Source: an uncultured Bacteroidia bacterium (GTDB lineage Bacteria > Bacteroidota > Bacteroidia > Bacteroidales > UBA932). From it: 64,000 nucleotides of DNA. The translations under genes and the position numbers were made by a program. The stretch is taken from assembly GCA_902778105.1 (NCBI GenBank), contig CACYWN010000002.1, positions 1 through 64,000 of the forward strand, given 5' to 3'. Each line of letters begins with the position of its first letter. The stretch's first letter is position 1. Below, piece after piece: positions 33,991 to 55,714 of this stretch. The notes under the pieces were generated by a model. The model saw only the letters and a program-made list of their open reading frames with translations. It was not told the DNA's origin and searched no databases.

Positions 33991-34386
33991 GGGGGTGTTT
34001 TGGTTTTGACAGCGTTGCTGTCGGACGGTAAGCACGTCGGGCGTCGGGACCTTGCCCGTTAATCTCAGATCCCGAAAAATCAGTTGCCAACAACAACTAC
34101 GCACTCGCTGCCTAATTTGGCTGGGCCAATTAGCTTAATCCGCGACGCCTAGGCTGCGCCGCCGACGAGTATCCCTCGGACGTTCCGCCCGGTATCGGCC
34201 GATCCAGGGGTATCATCCAGACCGGGACGCACCGGTGGACGCCTTTAAAACCGGCTAAGATTCAAAGGCTAAGGCTGTCTTCGCCCGCCTTCCGGCAGGG
34301 ACGGCTCGAAAACCAAAGGACGGATAAGCGTGTAGAAAGCCGCCAGGCGCGGCGTTTGGACAGCGGTTCGAGTCCGCTCACCTCCA
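33991..34386 (+). ncRNA. ssrA: transfer-messenger RNA (tmRNA)
   Basis: The one-piece tmRNA is closed by GGGGGTG (33991-33997) and CACCTCC (34379-34385). It ends with a normal T arm (GCGG, TTCGAGT, CCGC) and rescues stalled ribosomes with SmpB. The internal frame at 34086-34115 encodes the tag ANNNYALAA and then TAA. Pseudoknot-like GC-rich blocks lie between 34135 and 34320. CCA is not encoded. Its 3' end is the left boundary of the islet. Confidence 0.96.
34086..34115 (+). other. tmRNA proteolysis-tag frame
   Basis: Codons read ANNNYALAA followed by TAA. The YALAA end is the usual degradation signal read by ClpXP. Confidence 0.93.
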
Positions 34387-34392
34387 CAGAAA
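34369..34392 (+). repeat. 24-bp direct repeat, left copy (putative attL at ssrA 3' end)
   Basis: The sequence from CGAGTCCGCTCACC to CACAGAAA is identical to 38046-38069. Here it completes the functional tmRNA. Confidence 0.93.
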
Positions 34393-34424
34393 TCCATTGT
34401 AGAGCGCTCTACATTGGATTTTCT
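34389..34424 (+). terminator. ssrA terminator at the left end of the islet
   Basis: A long palindrome pairs AAATCCA with TGGATTT and TGTAGAGC with GCTCTACA, and is followed by TTTTC. It replaces the native terminator now found at 38067-38107. Confidence 0.82.
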
Positions 34425-34507
34425 ATTATTAATGTATCAAATTATGTGACAAAATTCACCTTTTTTCGGTATCAACCTCTACTTGACTATACCCGGCTTT
34501 TTTGATG

Positions 34508-35917
34508 CTATTTTAAGATAATCCAGGAGCCGTAACGATCGCCGCCTTTTCGTTTGATGTATTCGTGTTGCTTGAGCGAAGAAAGGATTCTGGAAATGGT
34601 ACGGACACTGATCCCGGTGATGGACTTAATTTGAGCCTGACGTATTTCTGGGTTGGCTTTGATGACATTATAGACAGATCTTTCTACGCCATCTACTGCG
34701 CCAAAATCTATGGCAAACTGTTTGTTGAAGTCGTTAATTTCTTCATTATCAGTTTGTTCTTCTGCGCCATCTTCTACGCCAACCACTACGCCAAGGTTGG
34801 CGATGTTGCGGGGACGCTGGATGGTGACGCGAACACCTCCGCAGTTCTCTTCGAAAACAGGATCCGGAAGGCCGACACCCTGGAGAGCCTTGCGAATTTT
34901 CTTGATGCCCCGACCCCAAGTCTCAACGAAACCGGCAAGGAAGAAGACCTTCGCGATGAGCGGATTGCGTTGACGGGAGGAATGCTCCTGCATCAGCATC
35001 TCCACCGGGAAACCTTCCGGAAGAGGGCCTTCATTCCATACAGATACGCGGTCATTATAGACTTTCATCTGTACAAAAGTACCCGTATATAGCTTGTGAA
35101 TGAGGGCGTTATATATGATTTCGCGTAAGGCGGCTTCGGGAATCTCCAGCGGTTCCGTGCGTTTCATACCCTTGTAACCTATGTATGATACGAGATACTT
35201 AGAGCGAAGAACCTTCATAATCCTGTCGGCCATCCGGATGACATCGCCCTGGATTACGTCCTGGAAAAGGAGATCGGATTCGTCGCTGATGAAACGGCCG
35301 ATACGGAAGTCAATGCTTCGGACATAATTCTCCGGATGGGAGCCAAAGAGAATGATGGCCGCAATACGAAGCTTTCCGTCGTCAGAAATCAAGTGTAGAT
35401 TCTTAAGGACGGTTTGAGTATCATCATTGATGGAATCTTTGGGCAGTCGTTCTTCTTCAATTGCTTTCTTTAGGAAGTAGTCGACAGCCTCACGGTCGAT
35501 GTCTTTCTCAATAGTTGCATTAGGGATTTCCATCTCATCCCAATGCATTCCCATCTTGGACAGAAGAAAACGTTCCAGCGCTTCACCACGAAGAGTCTGA
35601 TTCGTGGCCCCACTTCTGTAATAGATAACACCATCCAGGGTAATGGCCACATTACTCGGGTGGACAGCAATCTCAATGTAGTCGATGCCGTTGAGAGTAC
35701 GCTTGTTGACATCAGCAACAATGCCGAGTTTGTTGATGATCTTGTTGGGAAGTTTCTCCAGCAGGGATTTGATGTCGGCCAGCCCGACGGGTGTTCCGTC
35801 ATCAGCAGTGCCGACATTCAAGATGCCGCCTTGCGCATTTGCAAAGCCACAGATCCATTCCAACCACTCGTCTTTCCAAATGGTTTTGTTTTCAACAATA
35901 TGCGTTTCCTCCATCAT
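34508..35917 (-). CDS. AlbA_2 (Schlafen-like) / HATPase / winged-helix regulator
   Basis: This 469-residue protein has three parts. An N-terminal AlbA_2 domain has FANAQGGILNVGTADDGTPVG. A central GHKL-like ATPase domain (HATPase_c_4 type) has EAALREIIYNALIHKLY and FVETWGRGIKKI. A C-terminal winged helix has QAQIKSITGISVRTISRIL. Such proteins are usually labelled ATP-binding transcriptional regulators or RecG-like. They are common on mobile islands and in defence neighbourhoods; their function is mostly unproven. It is transcribed divergently from the exported protein. ATG 35914 is an equally possible start. Confidence 0.82.
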   Translation of the reverse strand: MMEETHIVENKTIWKDEWLEWICGFANAQGGILNVGTADDGTPVGLADIKSLLEKLPNKIINKLGIVADVNKRTLNGIDYIEIAVHPSNVAITLDGVIYYRSGATNQTLRGEALERFLLSKMGMHWDEMEIPNATIEKDIDREAVDYFLKKAIEEERLPKDSINDDTQTVLKNLHLISDDGKLRIAAIILFGSHPENYVRSIDFRIGRFISDESDLLFQDVIQGDVIRMADRIMKVLRSKYLVSYIGYKGMKRTEPLEIPEAALREIIYNALIHKLYTGTFVQMKVYNDRVSVWNEGPLPEGFPVEMLMQEHSSRQRNPLIAKVFFLAGFVETWGRGIKKIRKALQGVGLPDPVFEENCGGVRVTIQRPRNIANLGVVVGVEDGAEEQTDNEEINDFNKQFAIDFGAVDGVERSVYNVIKANPEIRQAQIKSITGISVRTISRILSSLKQHEYIKRKGGDRYGSWIILK

Positions 35918-36037
35918 AACCGTTGTGGTTCGTCTTCACAAATGTAAGGCTTTGTGGCATGAATAGCAAAACAAATATTACTCGTAAATTGGGAAGGAAC
36001 AAAAAAGAAACTGTTCGGTTGTGAAGTCGAATGAATG

Positions 36038-36062
36038 AAAAAGGGCATCGCGGCCCTTTTCT
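36038..36062. terminator. small hairpin between the divergent islet genes
   Basis: AAAAGGGC and GCCCTTTT close a 6-nt loop. It looks like a bidirectional terminator, which is unexpected between divergent genes. The remaining stretch 35918-36122 has no clear promoter. Confidence 0.55.
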
Positions 36063-36122
36063 AGCCCTTTGGATAGCATTGTTTTTGCAAGAACTACGGT
36101 TGTCACCACAGGTCTTTCTGCC

Positions 36123-37202
36123 ATGAAACGTTTATTCATACTTGCATTCTCCGTCTTCGTTAGCGCCCCCTTGCTTCATGCCCAACAACGCTCCTGGTCA
36201 ACCGGCCCTCTTCGGTGGGATTTGCTTACAAAGAATACCGCCGAGGTGGAGGATGTCAACCATCTGGCATTCGACTGGTCATTCTCTGGAAGAACAGTAA
36301 AACCAGCGTGGAACACATGGATGAATTGCTTGATGCACGACACGAAACTCGACCTGGGGGCGTCCTGGCATAATGTGGCCTTTGTCAATCCAACGGAATT
36401 GGCATATGACCAAGTCCTGTTCGACATCCAGGAATGGATGTTCCGACAATGCATGAGTGATTATTATTCCCCAAACATCGGGAAGAGCCTTGAGGAACTG
36501 ATGCACGAATATCAAGACGAGGCCGATCGTATGAGCAAGCAAGTAGCCTGGGATACAGACCAGGGGCGGAAACGGGAGATGGTCGAAATGTATTCCCGCC
36601 AACTAAAGAAGAATTTGGAGGATTGTCCCTGCCCGACACCTTCTTATTCATTGAAAGATTGGCATTTCTCGCTGCCGATGGGAGTTTCCTACACACGCTT
36701 CATAGGAGATGCGGGTGCCAGTCTGGGACCGGGTTACGGGATGTATACGGTTGCAGACATCGGATTCAAAAGACACCAGTTTCAGACCTTCTTCGATATT
36801 TCGTTCGATAATCGAGACTCTGTTTTTCCCCAGATCGGACTGGATTATGGATATACGGTCTATGACGGAAGCACCTTCCGCCTGGCACCCTTTGCCGGTC
36901 TGTCGTCCCAGTGGATTATCTTTAATACTTCTTCTTCGCCAGCCGAAGGAAACAAGGGAAAAACGACTTCAAGCGAAAACATCTGGAACCCCTGTATGCT
37001 GGCAGGTTTCACCGGGGAATTCAAATATCTTCGCGTCATCAATTGCTCTCCCGAATCAGATAGCGAGAACGGGTCCCGGTTCGAGGTCGGATTGGGACTC
37101 CATTGCTATGTTGCGCGGAGCTTTCCCGGGATGGGTCTGAATGCCCTCTCCCTCCATTTCGGACTTACCTATCTCGTTATCCACCGCCGAAGGCTGCGGT
37201 AA
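36123..37202 (+). CDS. exported protein of unknown function in the islet
   Basis: This 359-residue protein has a signal peptide ending LLHAQ. The middle has a charged helical stretch (about residues 125-185: MHEYQDEADRMSKQVAW onward) followed by CPCPTP. From about residue 195 it reads as alternating aromatic strands (HFSLPMGVSYTRF, FQTFFDISFDNR, LGLHCYVARSF), suggesting an outer-membrane beta-barrel. I do not recognise the family. It faces away from the AlbA_2 regulator, which may control it. Confidence 0.72.
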   Translation: MKRLFILAFSVFVSAPLLHAQQRSWSTGPLRWDLLTKNTAEVEDVNHLAFDWSFSGRTVKPAWNTWMNCLMHDTKLDLGASWHNVAFVNPTELAYDQVLFDIQEWMFRQCMSDYYSPNIGKSLEELMHEYQDEADRMSKQVAWDTDQGRKREMVEMYSRQLKKNLEDCPCPTPSYSLKDWHFSLPMGVSYTRFIGDAGASLGPGYGMYTVADIGFKRHQFQTFFDISFDNRDSVFPQIGLDYGYTVYDGSTFRLAPFAGLSSQWIIFNTSSSPAEGNKGKTTSSENIWNPCMLAGFTGEFKYLRVINCSPESDSENGSRFEVGLGLHCYVARSFPGMGLNALSLHFGLTYLVIHRRRLR

Positions 37203-37240
37203 CGATTCCAAATCACAATCGATATTGGAAATGTAACGAA

Positions 37241-37420
37241 ATGCTATCTTGTTATTATCGTTCCGCTATTGAAGAAGCGCTCCGCCGTGTGCAGAGGGCG
37301 GTGAAGGTGGCGTATCCCGGCTGTTATTTCGGCGGCATCACTTTACGGTCTTGCAGGAGAGGGTTTGCAGTCTATCGGGAGGGGAAAGTGATTGAACAGT
37401 ATACTTTTATTGGGAGATAG
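37241..37420 (+). CDS. small basic protein of the islet, unknown function
   Basis: A 59-residue frame (MLSCYYRSAIEEALRRVQRA...) starts 38 nt after the exported-protein gene. It is basic, Tyr/Arg-rich and has three cysteines. It ends YTFIGR with the stop inside a 15-bp sequence that recurs at the end of the next gene. No family is recognised; coding potential is moderate. Confidence 0.5.
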   Translation: MLSCYYRSAIEEALRRVQRAVKVAYPGCYFGGITLRSCRRGFAVYREGKVIEQYTFIGR

Positions 37421-37471
37421 GCATAAGAGAGGGTGTGATTTTTGCATAAGTAGATGTAAAACAGACATCTT

Positions 37472-37858
37472 ATGAGAAGAATAGCCATCCCTCTTTTCTT
37501 TGCATTAGGTATCCTTTCTTTCGTGGGATGTGACGTCGTTCGACAAATTCCCGTTCAATACGACACTCCAACGGTAGTGTCAATGGAATCAGTCTTTGTA
37601 GTCTCCGCTACTCAATGGAATTATGGTGTTATCACTATGAGCTTTGATTTACCTGGTGGTGTTCTCATATCTCCGGGCGATGTGGTAATCAATGGAAAAC
37701 CACACTACGCTGAATGGAAGTATTATCATCAAGACGCGAAAATGACCCGTAAGGTAAACCAAGCGACTGAGCCCTTCACGACGTTTTCATCAGAATCTTC
37801 GGAGGGAGAACGTATTCGTAATATCTTTCTCTTTAAGTATTCGGTTATTGGGAGATAG
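37472..37858 (+). CDS. small lipoprotein of the islet, unknown function
   Basis: This 128-residue protein has a lipoprotein signal ending LSFVGC. The mature part is beta-rich (GVITMSFDLPGGVLISPGD) with no known domain. It ends KYSVIGR in the same 15-bp sequence as the gene before it. It is the last gene of the islet. Confidence 0.65.
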   Translation: MRRIAIPLFFALGILSFVGCDVVRQIPVQYDTPTVVSMESVFVVSATQWNYGVITMSFDLPGGVLISPGDVVINGKPHYAEWKYYHQDAKMTRKVNQATEPFTTFSSESSEGERIRNIFLFKYSVIGR

Positions 37859-38045
37859 GTTTTGGCGGTTAGAGAGAGATTAGTTATTTTTGATGCAAGA
37901 AGATGATATTGAGTGTTACATTCTATCCAGTATTCTGGTACAAAAATGTAACAAGATTAGGTAATATCCAATACCTATACCTGCATTTCTTCAATGTAGA
38001 ATAATGATTTCTAGAGGCTTGTAGGGCTGAATACAGTCTGAATAC

Positions 38046-38069
38046 GAGTCCGCTCACCTCCACAGAAAA
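38046..38069 (+). repeat. 24-bp direct repeat, right copy (putative attR)
   Basis: It is identical to 34369-34392 but is preceded by unrelated sequence, so it is a fragment of the ssrA 3' end and not a second tmRNA. Confidence 0.93.
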
Positions 38070-38107
38070 GTGCCTTACAGATATCTGTATGGCACTTTTT
38101 GTTTTTG
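38067..38107 (+). terminator. original ssrA terminator, now beyond the islet
   Basis: AAAAGTGCC with TACAGATATCTGTA and GGCACTTTT form a long stem followed by a T tract broken by one G. It sits directly after the right repeat, where the terminator of an unoccupied ssrA would be. Confidence 0.8.
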
Positions 38108-38199
38108 GCGCCCAAAAACTTACCCCAATTTACCCCCTCGTAAGAGCGATTTCTACTTTGCCCGTCGTCTCCGCGGGGAGATTCCCGTTCAGCGGCTCC

Positions 38200-49008: not shown

Positions 49009-52000
49009 ATGAAAAGAATCCTGCTTTTCTTATTTCCGCTTCTCCTCTTTGCGGCGACAGTATCGTGTTCGCAGTTAGGGGAGAAGGAGATTGCCGTGGA
49101 GTCTGTCACCCTGAGCCAGCCCACCGCCGAGATGCTGATCGGGGAGACCATCAAGCTGGTGGCGACCGTCCTGCCGGCCAATGCTTCGGACAAATCCGTC
49201 AACTGGGCCTCGTCCAAACAGTCCGTGGCGACGGTGACGCCCTTCGGCGAAGTCAAGGCCCTGGAGGTGGGAACGTCCACCATTACGGCGTCCTGCAGCG
49301 GTAAGTCCGCCACGTGCGTGGTCACGGTGTCCAAGGGGGCCGTCCAGGTCGTCTCCGTTTCGCTGGACCGGTCGGAATGCAAGTTGTCGGTGGGCGATGA
49401 GATTGTTCTCACGGCAACCGTAGCCCCGGACAATGCCACGGACAAGGCGGTCAGCTGGCAAAGTTCGAATCCCCTGGTCGCGAGCGTCGACCAGGGAGGA
49501 AGGGTGAAAGGCCTTTCGGAAGGAAAAGCCACCGTCACGGCGACGGCAGGCGGCCAGTCGGCCAGCTGCGAGGTGACGGTTTCCCAGGATGTGGTTCCCG
49601 TCGCTTCGGTCGGACTGGACCGGACATCGGTCACCCTGGAAGAAAAGCAGCGCACCCAGCTGATCGCGACGGTCAGTCCGGGTGACGCCACGGACAAGAC
49701 TGTCACGTGGTCTACTTCCGATCCTTCCGTCGCGACGGTGGACCAGGAAGGCTGGGTGACGGCGGTCAAGGAAGGAAGTGCCACTGTCACGGCGAAAGCC
49801 GGCGCCCAGTCCGCGAAATGCAGCGTCACCGTCCAGAACAAGGTGATCCCGGTTACATCCATCTCCATCAGCAAGTCCAGCCTGCAGCTGACGAAGGGAC
49901 AGTCGGAGACCCTGACGGCGACGGTCAGCCCCTCCGATGCCACGGACAAGACTGTCACGTGGAGCAGTTCGGACGCTACGGTCGCCAGCGTGACCAAGGA
50001 TGGCAAGGTGACGGGTCTCAAGGGAGGCAGTGTCACCGTGACGGCGAAGGCCGGTGAAAAATCGGCGCAGTGCAGTGTCACCGTGACCGTTCCAGTCGAG
50101 GATGTCTCCCTGGACCGCGCCAGCGTGACCCTGGAGGAAAAGCAGACCACGACACTGGTCGCGACGGTCAGTCCTTCCGATGCCACGGACAAGACGGTCA
50201 CCTGGTCCTCTTCGGACAGCGATGTGGCGACCGTGGACCAGAACGGCAAGGTGACGGCGGTGAAGGAAGGCGTCGCGACGGTCGAGGCTGAGGTGGGCGG
50301 AAAGTCTGCGACTTGTTCCGTCACGGTCAGCAAGGCCGTGGTGCCTGTATCCTCCATCAGCCTGGATGTGAGCCGTCTGGACCTGGTGGTCGGCGGTACG
50401 GCCACCCTGACGGCCACGGTTGCGCCGGAGGACGCCACGGACAAGACGGTCACCTGGAGCAGTACGGATGCGACGGTCGTCAGCGTGGACCAGAAGGGCA
50501 AGGTAACGGCCCTGAAGGGCGGTACGGCGACGATTACGGCCAAGGCCGGCGAAAAATCGGCCAATGCCCTGGTCGACGTGATGGAAGTGACGCCCGCCAC
50601 CCTGGAGGTGGACGGAGAAGGGGAAAGCTTCGATGTCACCGTCATCACGACCCGCTCCTATCACGTGAGTTCCAAGCCGGATTGGATCACGGAGAAATCC
50701 GTGGAGAAGCAGGTCCATCATTTCGAGGCGGTTCCCAACGACAAGACGGAGGAAAGGACCGGCATCATTGTCTTCTGCGACGATGTGGGGTCCTGCATCC
50801 CCTGCGAAGTGAAGCAGAAGGGCAATTTCGGACTGGCCGTAACCCCCGGGGAACTCACTTTTGAGCTGGAAGGCGGTGAGGGCTCTTTCAGCGTCGTCAC
50901 GGCACTGGGCTGGACGGCCTCTTCCAACGCCTCCTGGTGCCGGGTCTCTCCCGGAAGCGGCACCGGCCAAGGAACCGTAAAGGTGACGGTCGATGCGTAC
51001 CGGGTGGTTGGCGACCGCAATGCCGTTATCACGGTCAAAGCCGGAGATGTCGTCCGTACGGTCAGCATCTCCCAGCACGGGGTCATTCCGTTCTCCGTTT
51101 CTCCCGCTTCGGTGGACCTGGGAGAAGAGGGCGGCAGTTTTGAGGTATCGGTGTCCGGTTCCTACGGATATCACGTCAGCGGAATGCCCGAATGGATCAG
51201 CCAGACCTCCGTCAAGGACAGGGTCCATACGTTCCAGGCGACGGCCAATTCCGCGCTGGAAGTACGCAGCGGGGTGGTTACTTTCTGCGATGACGAAGGG
51301 ACATGCCTGTCCGTCTTCGTACAGCAGGCCGCCCACGTCCGCGGACCGGATGAAGTGGACTGGACCAAGGAGTTCTACCACCGTTCCCTGTTCATGCGCT
51401 TCACCGCTACCTGGTGCGGGTGGTGTCCCCGGATGGCCTCTGCCGTGAAGCTGGCCCAGCAGCAGGATCCGGGCAAGATCGAGGCGATCAGCCTGCATGG
51501 AGGCGGAAGCAAACTGGTATTCCAGGCCGGCAGTACCCTGGAGACCACCTATGGCATAAACGGTTATCCGAGCGGCGTGTTGGACGGCCGGAAGCAGATA
51601 GCCAACTATGCGATGGAAACGACGGCCGGCTACATTTCCGAGGGTCTCAGGCAGCGGGAAGCGGCCTATCCTACCGTTTCCGCAATCGGATGGACCTCTT
51701 CCTTCTCCGGCCAGAAACTGTCCATCGAAACCCATGTCTTCATCAAGGAGCCGGGCAATTACAAGTATACGGTCCTGCTGGTGGAGGACGGCATCGTCGG
51801 CTACCAGGCCGACTTTGAAGTCGGCGACCATCAGGACTACCGCCACGACGGGGTCGTCCGTGTAGCTGTGACGGATATTTCCGGCGAAACATTCACCACC
51901 ACATCGTCCAATTCGGTGCAAACCAGGAAATTCTCCATCAACCTGCCTTCCTCCTACAAGAAGGAGAATCTGCGGATCCTCGTCTATGTGCAGCGGGCCT

Positions 52001-52158
52001 ACGGCTCCCTGTCCAAGATCGAAGCATCCGATTACGACGGCTATTTCGTGGACAACTGCGCTTCGGGCAAGGCCGGCGGCATCATGCGTCCCGCCGTCAT
52101 CTCCGAGGCCGGCGGTGGAAACGAGGACTTCATCGATGGTAAACCCATTAACTGGTAA
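49009..52158 (+). CDS. surface lipoprotein: six Big_2 domains, three BACON domains, Omp28/thioredoxin-like domain
   Basis: This 1049-residue lipoprotein (signal ending VSCS) has six bacterial Ig-like Big_2 repeats at about residues 28-525, of the form [13 protein letters not shown]...GKVTALKGG. Three BACON-type domains follow, starting near 526, 608 and 694. An Omp28-like domain begins near 782, with a CGWC redox motif at about 803-806 ([13 protein letters not shown]). BACON domains often help bind glycans or mucin. The Omp28 fold resembles thioredoxin but its role is unproven. It ends 4 nt before the next gene and leads a three-gene unit. The Big_2 repeats are nearly identical in DNA sequence. 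Confidence 0.87.
49684..50457 (+). repeat. near-identical Big_2 coding repeats
   Basis: A 27-nt block encoding DATDKTVTW recurs at 49684, 49936, 50179 and 50431, about 81-84 codons apart. Copies 1 and 2 share 24 identical bases, as do copies 3 and 4. Such repeats allow domain loss or gain by recombination. Confidence 0.85.
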
Positions 52159-52162
52159 GGCT

Positions 52163-55100
52163 ATGAGAAAGATTGGACATTTACCCGGAATGTTGCTGGC
52201 TCTTGGCCTCTGTGCCTGCCAGAACCTGTTGGAAGAGGACCTTCTCCAGGATGCCCGGATGCACCCCGGAGAGACGATCCTGAAGGCGACCATAGAATCC
52301 GGTTCCCCGACAAGGACTTCGCTTTCTTCCGAAGGGAACGGCGTCAATAAGGTCCTGTGGAGCGAGGGTGACGTAATCGGCGTCTTTGTCGATGACGCTG
52401 CGGATGCCAGCGTCTTCCGGCTGGTCGACGGAGCCGGGACCCGGAATGGAATATTCTCCGGCTCCGGCCAAGGCAGCCGGTATGTCGCGGCCTATCCTTA
52501 TGGACAGATCAAATCCCTGGAAGGGGATGTCCTGACGCTCGAGCTTCCGGTCGAACAGGAATCTGCCGATGGAAACGTCGGTTCCGGATCACTCCCGATG
52601 GTTGCCGTCGGAGTCTCCACGGACTTATCCTTCCGGAATGTGGCTTCGGTCCTGAAACTTTCCCTGAAGGGACACCAACTCGTTACCAGGTTGGTTTTCA
52701 GGCCGAAGGATCCATCCATCAAGGTCAGCGGCCCGATGAGCGTTTCCCTGGCCCGTCCCGACGATCCGGTGGTCACGATGTCTCCCGACGGCGTGGACAG
52801 TGTCGCCGTCAATGTCGGCGGCGTGCTGTTGGACAAAGACAAGGAGACAGTCTTCTATATCGGGCTTCCTGCCCAGACCTACCAGGGCGGTTTCACGGTG
52901 CGGATCTATACCTCCACCGGATATATGGACAAAACCTATGGCGCGGACTTCACGATGGAGCGTTCCAAGGTACATGCGGCCGGAGTGGTCACGGTCAAAC
53001 TGGACAGCGGCGTGGAAGTCAGCGAGTCCCTGGAGGGGCAAGGTACGGAGAAGGACCCGCTCAAGATAGCTTCCCTCGGTGATTTGCTCTTGATGCAGAC
53101 CTCGGTGAATGCGGGTCAGACCATCCGGACTTCCGTCGGGGGGCAGGTGGAAGCTGCCATGGCATCCTATATCCTCGTCCAGGATATCGACCTGGGCGGT
53201 CTCTACAATGAAAATACTGGAAAGAGCTGGACGCCGATCGGGAATTATTCCAACCTTTTCCGGGGAACCTTCGATGGAGGCGGCCATGAAATCGCTCATC
53301 TGTATATCCATGTCGAAGAGGATTGCCAGGGCTTGTTCGGGGCTGTGGAAAGCAGTACGATCCGGAATCTGACCATTTCCGGCGATGTGACCGCCCATGG
53401 TTATTGCGGTGTTTTGGCCGGGGATATGGGAAGGAAAACCACGGTGGACGGCGTCGTTACGAAGGGTACTGTCAAGGGCGAGAATCATGTGGGCGGACTC
53501 ATGGGTCACGCCTATCATGTGACGATGACATTCTGTAGGAACGAGGCTGATCTTCGGGATTGCGAGTACTATTGTGGCGGACTCGTCGGATTGACCGAGT
53601 TCAGCTGGATCCAGCATTGTACGAACAGGGGGAAAGTGGATGGAAATCAGCTGAGTGGAGGATTGGCGGGATACCTGAATGGGGCGAGGATTGTCGACTG
53701 TACCAATACGGGCGATGTGACCGGCACTTGGAGGATCGGCGGCCTGGGAGGTTACTTCTGGCAGGGAGGAAAGATCCTCAACAGCATCAATTACGGGAAT
53801 GTGAAGGGTTTGCAAGGTTCCCAATATGTCGGGGGCCTCGGCGGATTCGTGTCCAGCCGTGCCATTTCCTATCAGAAGGAAGCGACCATCGCCAACTGTA
53901 TCCATCTGGGGACGGTTGAAATAACGGATGGGACCTACTGCGGGTGGCTGGCCGGTTTCATCGGACTGGCCGACGGTGAGACGCCCATTGGCGATGAACC
54001 GGCTTCCGGAGCCTGGGTGAAGAACTGCTATTGGCTGCAGGACGGACCGATCTCCCTTCCGGAGGTGGGCGGCGGCCCCGGCATCGCGGAAAACAATTTC
54101 GCGCTGACCGAGGCGCAGCTGAAGGGAGAGCCCTATAATGGAACACTGTATGTGACGGCTGACGGCACCGGATTCAATCGGCTGATCGACGCCCTCAATG
54201 CCGGTGCCGTGTATTGGGGCAATGTCTGGGAGAATGGTTTCGGCTCCGGATGGGAGGGGAATCCACCCCTTTCCGGCTGGGTCTATCCTGGCCCCGGCTC
54301 GTACCCCGCCCTGACGGACCTGGAGGCGCAGATGCCCGGCAATTCCAAACCGATCTTCCGGATTTCGGCGGATTCGTTTGAAATGGATGCCGTGGGTGGT
54401 ACGTTCCAGGTGGAGGTGACTTCCAGCCAGGACTATACGGTCAGCCAGCTGCCGGAATGGATAACGGAGGTATCGTCGGAATCTCCCGCCAATCAGCCCC
54501 ATACGCGTATCTTTACGTATTCGGTGGCCGTCAACAGGTCGGCTTCGGAGCGTAAGGAATCCATCACGTTCACCAATGCGTCAGGAACGGTCCTCACGGT
54601 TAAATTGACCCAGAAAGCGCCGTATCTGACCATTTCCGTGACCGAGCTCCTTTTCCCGGATGCCGGTGGTTCGAAACGGATTCCGGTGTCGTCCAGCGTC
54701 GCCTGGAAAGTGACGTCGGAGGCGGACTGGTTCTCGGTGACCCCGGCCAGCGGTACCGGCGACGGAGCCCTGTCGGTCCTTGCCGAAGCGAATGGAAACG
54801 CCTCCGCCCGGGGAGGGTCCATCGTCTTATCCGCGGTGGATTTCCCCTATGAGTATGTCATCAACCTGGTCCAGTCCGGGTATGCCGGGGAGGAAACCGG
54901 TGATTGGAAGCAGCTTCCGTTCGTGCATCAATCCGTCGCCATGCGGTTTACGGCTACGTGGTGCGGCTGGTGTCCGTACATGAACCGCTCCATCCTCCGG
55001 GCCCAGGAACTGTATCCGGGCAAGATCCAGCATCTGGCCCTTCACGGAGGCGGAAGCGACCTGCAGTTCGATCCGACGGGTACCTTGATGAACCTGTTCC

Positions 55101-55714
55101 GGACCAATGCCTTCCCTACGGGCGTCATGGATGGACGCATCAAGGTGAATAACTCCACGGATATCGAATCCGTCGCCGCGAATTTCATCGAAGCCAGCAA
55201 GCAGACGGAACAGACCTATGGCACCGTGTCCGGCCTGGCACTCCGCTCCGTTTCCTCCGGCCAGCAGGTAACCATCGATGTCGACGGCTACTTCAAGCAG
55301 GCGGGAGACTACAAGATTACCGTCCTGCTGGTGGAGGACGGCATCATCCACCCTCAGGAGAATGGGGGCGACGATTATGTGCACGACAATGTGGTCCGGG
55401 TAACGGCAACCGGCATCCTGGGCGATGCCTTCACGGTCGGCAGCGATTTCACGCAGAAGTCCTTCCACTATTCCGTGACGGTTCCCTCGGGTTACAAGAT
55501 CGAGAACATGCGGGTTTTCGCCTATGTCCATAAAGCATTCGGATCCGCCCCTGTCATCCAGACGGAAGACTACGGGAATTACTACATTGACAACTGTGCG
55601 ACGGCTCCGGTCGGAAGTGTACTGAAACTGGCTCTGGTCGGTGGCGGTGGCGGAGGAGGCACCGGTGGCGGTGACAATGAGGGAATTACACCCGGTGATG
55701 ACATCAACCTGTAA
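52163..55714 (+). CDS. surface lipoprotein: fimbrillin-like domain, GLUG repeats, two BACON domains, Omp28-like domain
   Basis: This 1183-residue lipoprotein has a signal ending GLCAC. The N-terminal 280 residues match the fimbrillin-like (Mfa-like) family, with WSEGDVIGVFVDD, YPYGQIK and FRNVASVLKLSL. GLUG-type repeats of the form GGLVGLTEFSWIQHCTNRG fill about residues 330-640. BACON-type domains begin near 729 and 820. The last 270 residues are an Omp28-like domain with CGWC at about 934-937. The tail is a Gly-rich linker (VGGGGGGGTGGGD). The start ATG is 4 nt after the preceding stop. Confidence 0.85.
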   Translation: MRKIGHLPGMLLALGLCACQNLLEEDLLQDARMHPGETILKATIESGSPTRTSLSSEGNGVNKVLWSEGDVIGVFVDDAADASVFRLVDGAGTRNGIFSGSGQGSRYVAAYPYGQIKSLEGDVLTLELPVEQESADGNVGSGSLPMVAVGVSTDLSFRNVASVLKLSLKGHQLVTRLVFRPKDPSIKVSGPMSVSLARPDDPVVTMSPDGVDSVAVNVGGVLLDKDKETVFYIGLPAQTYQGGFTVRIYTSTGYMDKTYGADFTMERSKVHAAGVVTVKLDSGVEVSESLEGQGTEKDPLKIASLGDLLLMQTSVNAGQTIRTSVGGQVEAAMASYILVQDIDLGGLYNENTGKSWTPIGNYSNLFRGTFDGGGHEIAHLYIHVEEDCQGLFGAVESSTIRNLTISGDVTAHGYCGVLAGDMGRKTTVDGVVTKGTVKGENHVGGLMGHAYHVTMTFCRNEADLRDCEYYCGGLVGLTEFSWIQHCTNRGKVDGNQLSGGLAGYLNGARIVDCTNTGDVTGTWRIGGLGGYFWQGGKILNSINYGNVKGLQGSQYVGGLGGFVSSRAISYQKEATIANCIHLGTVEITDGTYCGWLAGFIGLADGETPIGDEPASGAWVKNCYWLQDGPISLPEVGGGPGIAENNFALTEAQLKGEPYNGTLYVTADGTGFNRLIDALNAGAVYWGNVWENGFGSGWEGNPPLSGWVYPGPGSYPALTDLEAQMPGNSKPIFRISADSFEMDAVGGTFQVEVTSSQDYTVSQLPEWITEVSSESPANQPHTRIFTYSVAVNRSASERKESITFTNASGTVLTVKLTQKAPYLTISVTELLFPDAGGSKRIPVSSSVAWKVTSEADWFSVTPASGTGDGALSVLAEANGNASARGGSIVLSAVDFPYEYVINLVQSGYAGEETGDWKQLPFVHQSVAMRFTATWCGWCPYMNRSILRAQELYPGKIQHLALHGGGSDLQFDPTGTLMNLFRTNAFPTGVMDGRIKVNNSTDIESVAANFIEASKQTEQTYGTVSGLALRSVSSGQQVTIDVDGYFKQAGDYKITVLLVEDGIIHPQENGGDDYVHDNVVRVTATGILGDAFTVGSDFTQKSFHYSVTVPSGYKIENMRVFAYVHKAFGSAPVIQTEDYGNYYIDNCATAPVGSVLKLALVGGGGGGGTGGGDNEGITPGDDINL

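Follow-up and report, generated by a model that had tools for sequence, protein, structure and literature searches.

An integrase-free islet at the 3' end of ssrA in an uncultured Bacteroidia bacterium is framed by the ends of a family of putative integrative mobilizable elements

Introduction

Cis-mobilizable elements (CIMEs), as described in streptococci, are decayed ICEs or integrative mobilizable elements (IMEs), defined by the retention of both attL and attR and the loss of the genes for integration and transfer; classical examples measure 1.2-13 kb and carry cargo (PMC5704250, PMC7563491). Islands at ssrA have been described in Dehalococcoides, where a 20-bp stretch of the ssrA 3' end stands on both sides as a direct repeat, and 15 of these islands, without an integration module, were proposed to be cis-mobilizable (PMC3146451). 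In the Bacteroidetes, the IMEs NBU1, NBU2 and MTnPi4 encode a tyrosine integrase and insert at the 3' ends of RNA genes, their reported targets being tRNA-Leu or tRNA-Ser, and the relaxase of NBU1 and NBU2 is MobP (PMC5704250).

The window analysed here (the whole 64-kb stretch of DNA) contains an islet that resembles each of these systems in part. In common with the streptococcal CIMEs as described, it has both att ends and cargo and is devoid of integration and transfer genes; however, phylum, target and integrase family all differ, and mobilization by accretion would here be a presumption. Like the Dehalococcoides islands, it lies at ssrA, is bounded by a direct repeat of the 3' end and has no integrase, although the Dehalococcoides integrase, DsiB, is a serine recombinase, whereas the family to which the islet's ends belong employs a tyrosine integrase with a Phage_int_SAM_5 domain. 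Like NBU1, NBU2 and MTnPi4, that family has a tyrosine integrase and uses the 3' terminus of an RNA gene for insertion, but here the RNA gene is ssrA instead of a tRNA gene; from NBU1 and NBU2 it differs further in having a DUF5712 protein rather than MobP. The islet itself is without any such gene. A limited search of open-licence full text retrieved no report of the element family. The islet probably represents a new family of a known kind (CIME/ssrA island), with a tyrosine integrase in its relatives, stranded passengers being already known elsewhere.

An AT-rich islet between two copies of the ssrA 3' end

33991..34387, + strand: ssrA (tmRNA), the insertion target (ARAGORN; tag ANNNYALAA)
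34369..34392, + strand: ssrA-proximal att core copy, 24 bp (exact repeat)
38045..38068, + strand: distal att core copy, 24 bp (exact repeat)

The original prediction held that the 3' end of the tmRNA recurs downstream as a perfect 24-bp copy and that the DNA between is AT-richer, and both statements were confirmed. The 24-mer CGAGTCCGCTCACCTCCACAGAAA starts at 34369 and again at 38045, a start-to-start distance of 3676 bp (originally given as 3677 bp); the two copies are identical to each other and the bases flanking them are unlike on either side. The GC content of the islet is 46.4% (0.464), compared with 59.3% in the remainder of the window, where none of 525 overlapping stretches of equal size is as low (minimum 0.572). 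On the + strand of the 64-kb window, four 24-mers occur more than once, and the other positions (49687-50434, 51772 and 55322) fall inside the long ORFs 49009-52158 and 51986-55714, the first of which is itself repetitive and contributes some of these repeats. The chance expectation for one match to a given 24-mer in 64 kb is about 64000/4^24. Core repeats (attL/attR) are found on both sides of the islet, as for a CIME, and its position at ssrA, between directly repeated copies of the gene's 3' end, is the arrangement of an ssrA genomic island. That the repeat arose fortuitously in an ordinary variable region, without any integration, is extremely improbable; the sequence after ssrA does vary widely across the genus, but the exact 24-bp repeat, the GC step, the conserved ends and the empty site (see below) contradict such an origin.

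Gene content of the islet

34508..35917, - strand: 469-aa SLFN AlbA_2/HATPase_c_4 protein with weak winged-helix hits (PF04326 5.6e-10, PF13749 5.9e-21)
36123..37202, + strand: 359-aa exported protein of no known family (signal peptide by eye)
37241..37420, + strand: 59-aa ORF (58% identity to ORF L002:1408-1572 on the same contig)
37472..37858, + strand: 128-aa putative lipoprotein (lipobox-like LSFVGC by eye)

No integrase, relaxase or transfer gene was found in the islet when its four ORFs were searched with Pfam and NCBIfam and nine element-family proteins were compared by tblastn, in agreement with the earlier claim that it is recombinase-free. The same tblastn comparison found no remnant of an integrase, helicase or relaxase (best E 0.11), and the four ORFs gave no Pfam or NCBIfam hit to phage packaging or capsid-related genes. 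An IME possesses its own integrase and mobilization genes; the islet has neither.

The gene at 34508-35917 had been read as an AlbA_2/ATPase/winged-helix regulator, of which the AlbA_2 and HATPase_c_4 domains were borne out, whilst the winged-helix hits fell under the Pfam cut-offs. Matches to this protein occur in 20 of 41 genomes, its own included. A defence role for it was considered and rejected because its PADLOC hits are partial only, the best (9.3e-10) covering residues 139-344 with an Argonaute-associated profile. In 60 other genomes the exported protein has one distant counterpart, encoded by G020 and 25% identical; it has none in viral contigs and one hit at E 0.53 against PDB sequences, and the lipoprotein has no match in 40 other genomes; neither these two nor the 59-aa ORF matched a Pfam, NCBIfam or PADLOC model at E 0.1. 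The 59-aa and lipoprotein ORFs finish in identical DNA, TTATTGGGAGATAGG (37402-37420 and 37846-37864), and a distance of 55 kb separates the small ORF from its relative on this contig; together these observations suggest fusion by recombination. The AlbA_2 protein and the exported protein would represent the cargo.

The ends of the islet are conserved in relatives

34433..34453, + strand: candidate integrase arm sites, two direct TGTNNCAAA copies 12 bp apart (kept in G017, G326 and G408; altered in G176)
37914..38044, + strand: integrase-side end of the element family, with the motifs TGTTACA (37914) and TGTAACAA (37947) (blastn, alignment)

The distal end of the islet matched 14 of the 16 loci compared by blastn, at 83-88% identity over 106-155 bp including the core copy; the remaining two, G326 and G408, matched the first 86 columns of the islet at 79-80%. 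The interior gave no blastn match at E 0.01 in these loci, most of which contain little interior. Allowing three mismatches or fewer, the distal end motif is present in 13 of 400 genus genomes, and the exact proximal pattern in four of the 400, the window's own genome being counted in both. The proximal end also follows ssrA in G017, G326 and G408, and in diverged form in G176. In G017 the contig stops 81 bp into islet-like sequence after ssrA, and a second core is located on a different contig behind sequence resembling the islet's distal end. The TGTNNCAAA-like repeats that lie close to both ends are putative integrase arm sites. The end motif occurs in eleven named records, all labelled Bacteroidales or Bacteroidia by title, and five of these titles refer to samples of rumen, omasum or reticulum. 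Neither the proximal-end pattern nor the distal end motif was present in viral contigs, and the distal 155 bp matched no plasmid or phage record.

Integrase-bearing members of the family

In five of the 13 genomes with the end motif (G142, G036, G408, G017 and G215), less than 100 bp of contig extends beyond the motif, leaving eight that are readable. Six of these (G003, G227, G418, G066, G096 and G176) encode a tyrosine integrase of 447-459 aa, starting 53 bp inside the end motif and about 130 bp from the core, and all six integrases contain both PF00589 and PF13102. Further inward, where contigs reach, a DnaB-type helicase is found in G003 (as two separate frames), G227, G418 and G066, and a 126-aa protein in G003 and G227. 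G003 also encodes a 592-aa DUF5712 protein whose HVHIIVS motif we take to be relaxase-like, a candidate relaxase seen in this genome only, and a LytTR response regulator occupies the proximal end in G408. The ends of the islet are thus related to those of integrase-bearing elements, which look like IMEs. Related integrases (E 1e-60) occur in 64 of 250 genomes, the window's own not included, and four plasmid records encode proteins with 39-45% identity to the integrase.

The possibility that the islet is a decayed prophage or phage satellite was weighed against this gene content. Phages commonly integrate at ssrA, but where the relatives are readable they encode a DnaB-type helicase, together with the DUF5712 candidate relaxase in the case of G003, no phage structural family was found among the scanned proteins, and the element end has no counterpart in viral contigs or phage records; a phage origin is consequently very unlikely.

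The window's own genome (2.66 Mb in 48 contigs, 84.2% complete) yielded no intact family integrase. Two frames in it resemble the integrase in part: one of 498 aa, which matches integrase residues 215-447 at 38%, and one of 74 aa, in which 59 residues match at 76%. The latter fragment (L187, G000:C17:1467-1643) adjoins sequence ending in GCTCCAC, a hairpin and TTTACCCC-like repeats; ARAGORN detected no tRNA at L187.

Two of the eight readable ends, those of G025 and of the window's islet, have no integrase at the corresponding place, each possessing other genes instead. In G025 this place is occupied by a 474-aa ATPase identified by PADLOC as PDC-S27 (E 8.5e-185). No tmRNA above cut-off was found at the G025 element, whose position at ssrA is read solely from its core sequence. 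PDC-S27 belongs to the systems frequently found in rumen genomes (PMC13356809). These observations bear on whether the islet belongs to a true non-autonomous satellite lineage, in which IME integrases have for a long time mobilized cargo between conserved ends in trans, as opposed to the one-off decay of a single IME. G025, with the same distal end around wholly different cargo, is a second integrase-less case and brings such ends to two of eight; however, two cases are few, G025 is assigned to ssrA by its core alone, and the cargo is rare (exported protein in 1/60 other genomes at 25%, lipoprotein in 0/40), so that a lineage of this kind is possible but improbable. A broader proposal, which we regard as rather doubtful, is that the ssrA site of this genus acts as a cassette system, where integrase-less cargo with fixed ends and exchangeable genes is shuttled in trans by IME integrases, as could be exemplified by the defence candidate of G025 and by the AlbA_2 and exported proteins of the window's islet.

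The ssrA site in relatives

The tmRNA query matched 37 of 61 genomes, and 31 ssrA stretches were examined, two of which (G007 and G021) end inside the tmRNA. G034 represents an empty site, with one copy of the repeat core and an NlpC/P60 gene, oriented towards ssrA, that ends 53 bp after the tmRNA. Its gene order is that of the window: SecA, bactofilin, ssrA, NlpC/P60, a 652-aa protein, an MFS transporter and Tgt (named by Pfam, the 652-aa protein being without a name). The original prediction anticipated an empty site with a single core copy and the distal terminator; the former was found in G034, but the sequence after its ssrA is unlike that terminator. The core pattern, which is blind to diverged cores, was present in 29 of 41 genomes; 27 of these have a single occurrence, whereas the window's genome and G017 have two each. 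None of the islet genes occurs in the 16.5 kb after ssrA of G003, the nearest genome by tmRNA (95%). The G142 element (L106, L162) has a damaged distal core, and the DNA past its end matches (74 bp at 89%) what a second contig has immediately behind ssrA; filled and empty alleles are possibly present in one bin.

34389..34424, + strand: hairpin and T run, element-type proximal end (AATCCATT...GGATTTT) (fold z -6.0; same sequence type after ssrA in G017, G326, G408 and G176)
38066..38137, + strand: second hairpin and TTACCCC repeats, outside the islet (fold z -5.2; resembles the post-ssrA sequence of G012 and G142 by eye)

A terminator-like hairpin follows each core copy (proximal -16, distal -19.9 kcal/mol). 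The distal one had been taken for the native ssrA terminator, a claim that found no support: its hairpin and TTACCCC repeats resemble, by eye, post-ssrA DNA of G012 and G142, and the sequence after ssrA differs in G003 and in G034. The stretch at 38066..38137 may be what is left of the end of a different ssrA element. The TTACCCC direct repeats themselves (38120-38137) lie behind the distal hairpin, with alike repeats after ssrA in G012 and partly in G142, and other 12-bp repeats follow ssrA in G004, G015 and G019; both types may mark the ends of further ssrA elements.

Insertion targets of the family

Only one of the six integrase-bearing genomes, G176, could be placed at ssrA. Here the proximal end follows ssrA on one contig, whilst the integrase, distal end and flank reside on another, and this flank matches the post-ssrA DNA of G033 over 2.9 kb at 82%; together these indicate an integrase-bearing family element at ssrA in G176, with G033 representing its empty site. 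No single contig joins ssrA, proximal end, integrase and distal end. One base, the same in G017, G408 and G176, distinguishes the distal core of these genomes from their resident ssrA, as if the element had come from another host; as its two sides lie on separate contigs in these genomes, mixed strains are also possible.

A different core, CGATTCCGACTAYCTCCAC, is present in the other five integrase-bearing genomes (G003, G227, G418, G066 and G096) and in G036, and in all six ssrA is followed by sequence other than the proximal end. In G096 the flank common to G033 and G176 comes about 285 bp after ssrA, and the element adjoins different DNA that is also found in RUG14710. The flank of the G003 element matches G418 and RGIG6537 and, beyond 52 bp, not its own ssrA region. 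The CGATTCCGACTAYCTCCAC subgroup therefore seems to use another target. Elements with this core fall into two shared-flank groups (L108/L178 and L113/L112/L184), hinting at a second insertion target. A reading of CGATTCCGACTAYCTCCAC as the T-arm of an RNA gene was discarded, TTCGATTCCGACTANCTCCAC being found in none of 61 genomes and no tRNA being detected by ARAGORN beside six such ends. A 42-bp, 88% match between G227 and the ssrA flank of G008 was likewise rejected as support for an ssrA site, since it is too short and G096 favours another site.

Origin and possible movement of the islet

The islet is most probably CIME-like, with both ends of an IME family enclosing unrelated cargo. Comparison with relatives supports its interpretation as an integrase-free integrative islet at the ssrA 3' end: the original view that it behaves like an integrative element without an integrase agrees with the empty site of G034 and with the kinship of both ends to a family bearing an integrase in six relatives. 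The accompanying idea of a satellite moved in trans is compatible with the data, although cis-mobilization by accretion or plain stranding fits equally well. In the CIME-like reading, the islet would have arisen by loss or replacement of its interior, its ends presumably remaining functional. An incoming family integrase could then excise or integrate it in trans on the islet's own two ends; alternatively, an intact element might insert beside it, with mobilization by accretion following.

Thus, for bacteria known from metagenomes, the ends of a small recombinase-free gene block can suffice to trace its likely mover. Taken as a pair, these ends provide a simple signature by which further islets, stranded or moved in trans, may be found together with their cargo, and one such cargo, that of G025, matches a candidate phage-defence gene.
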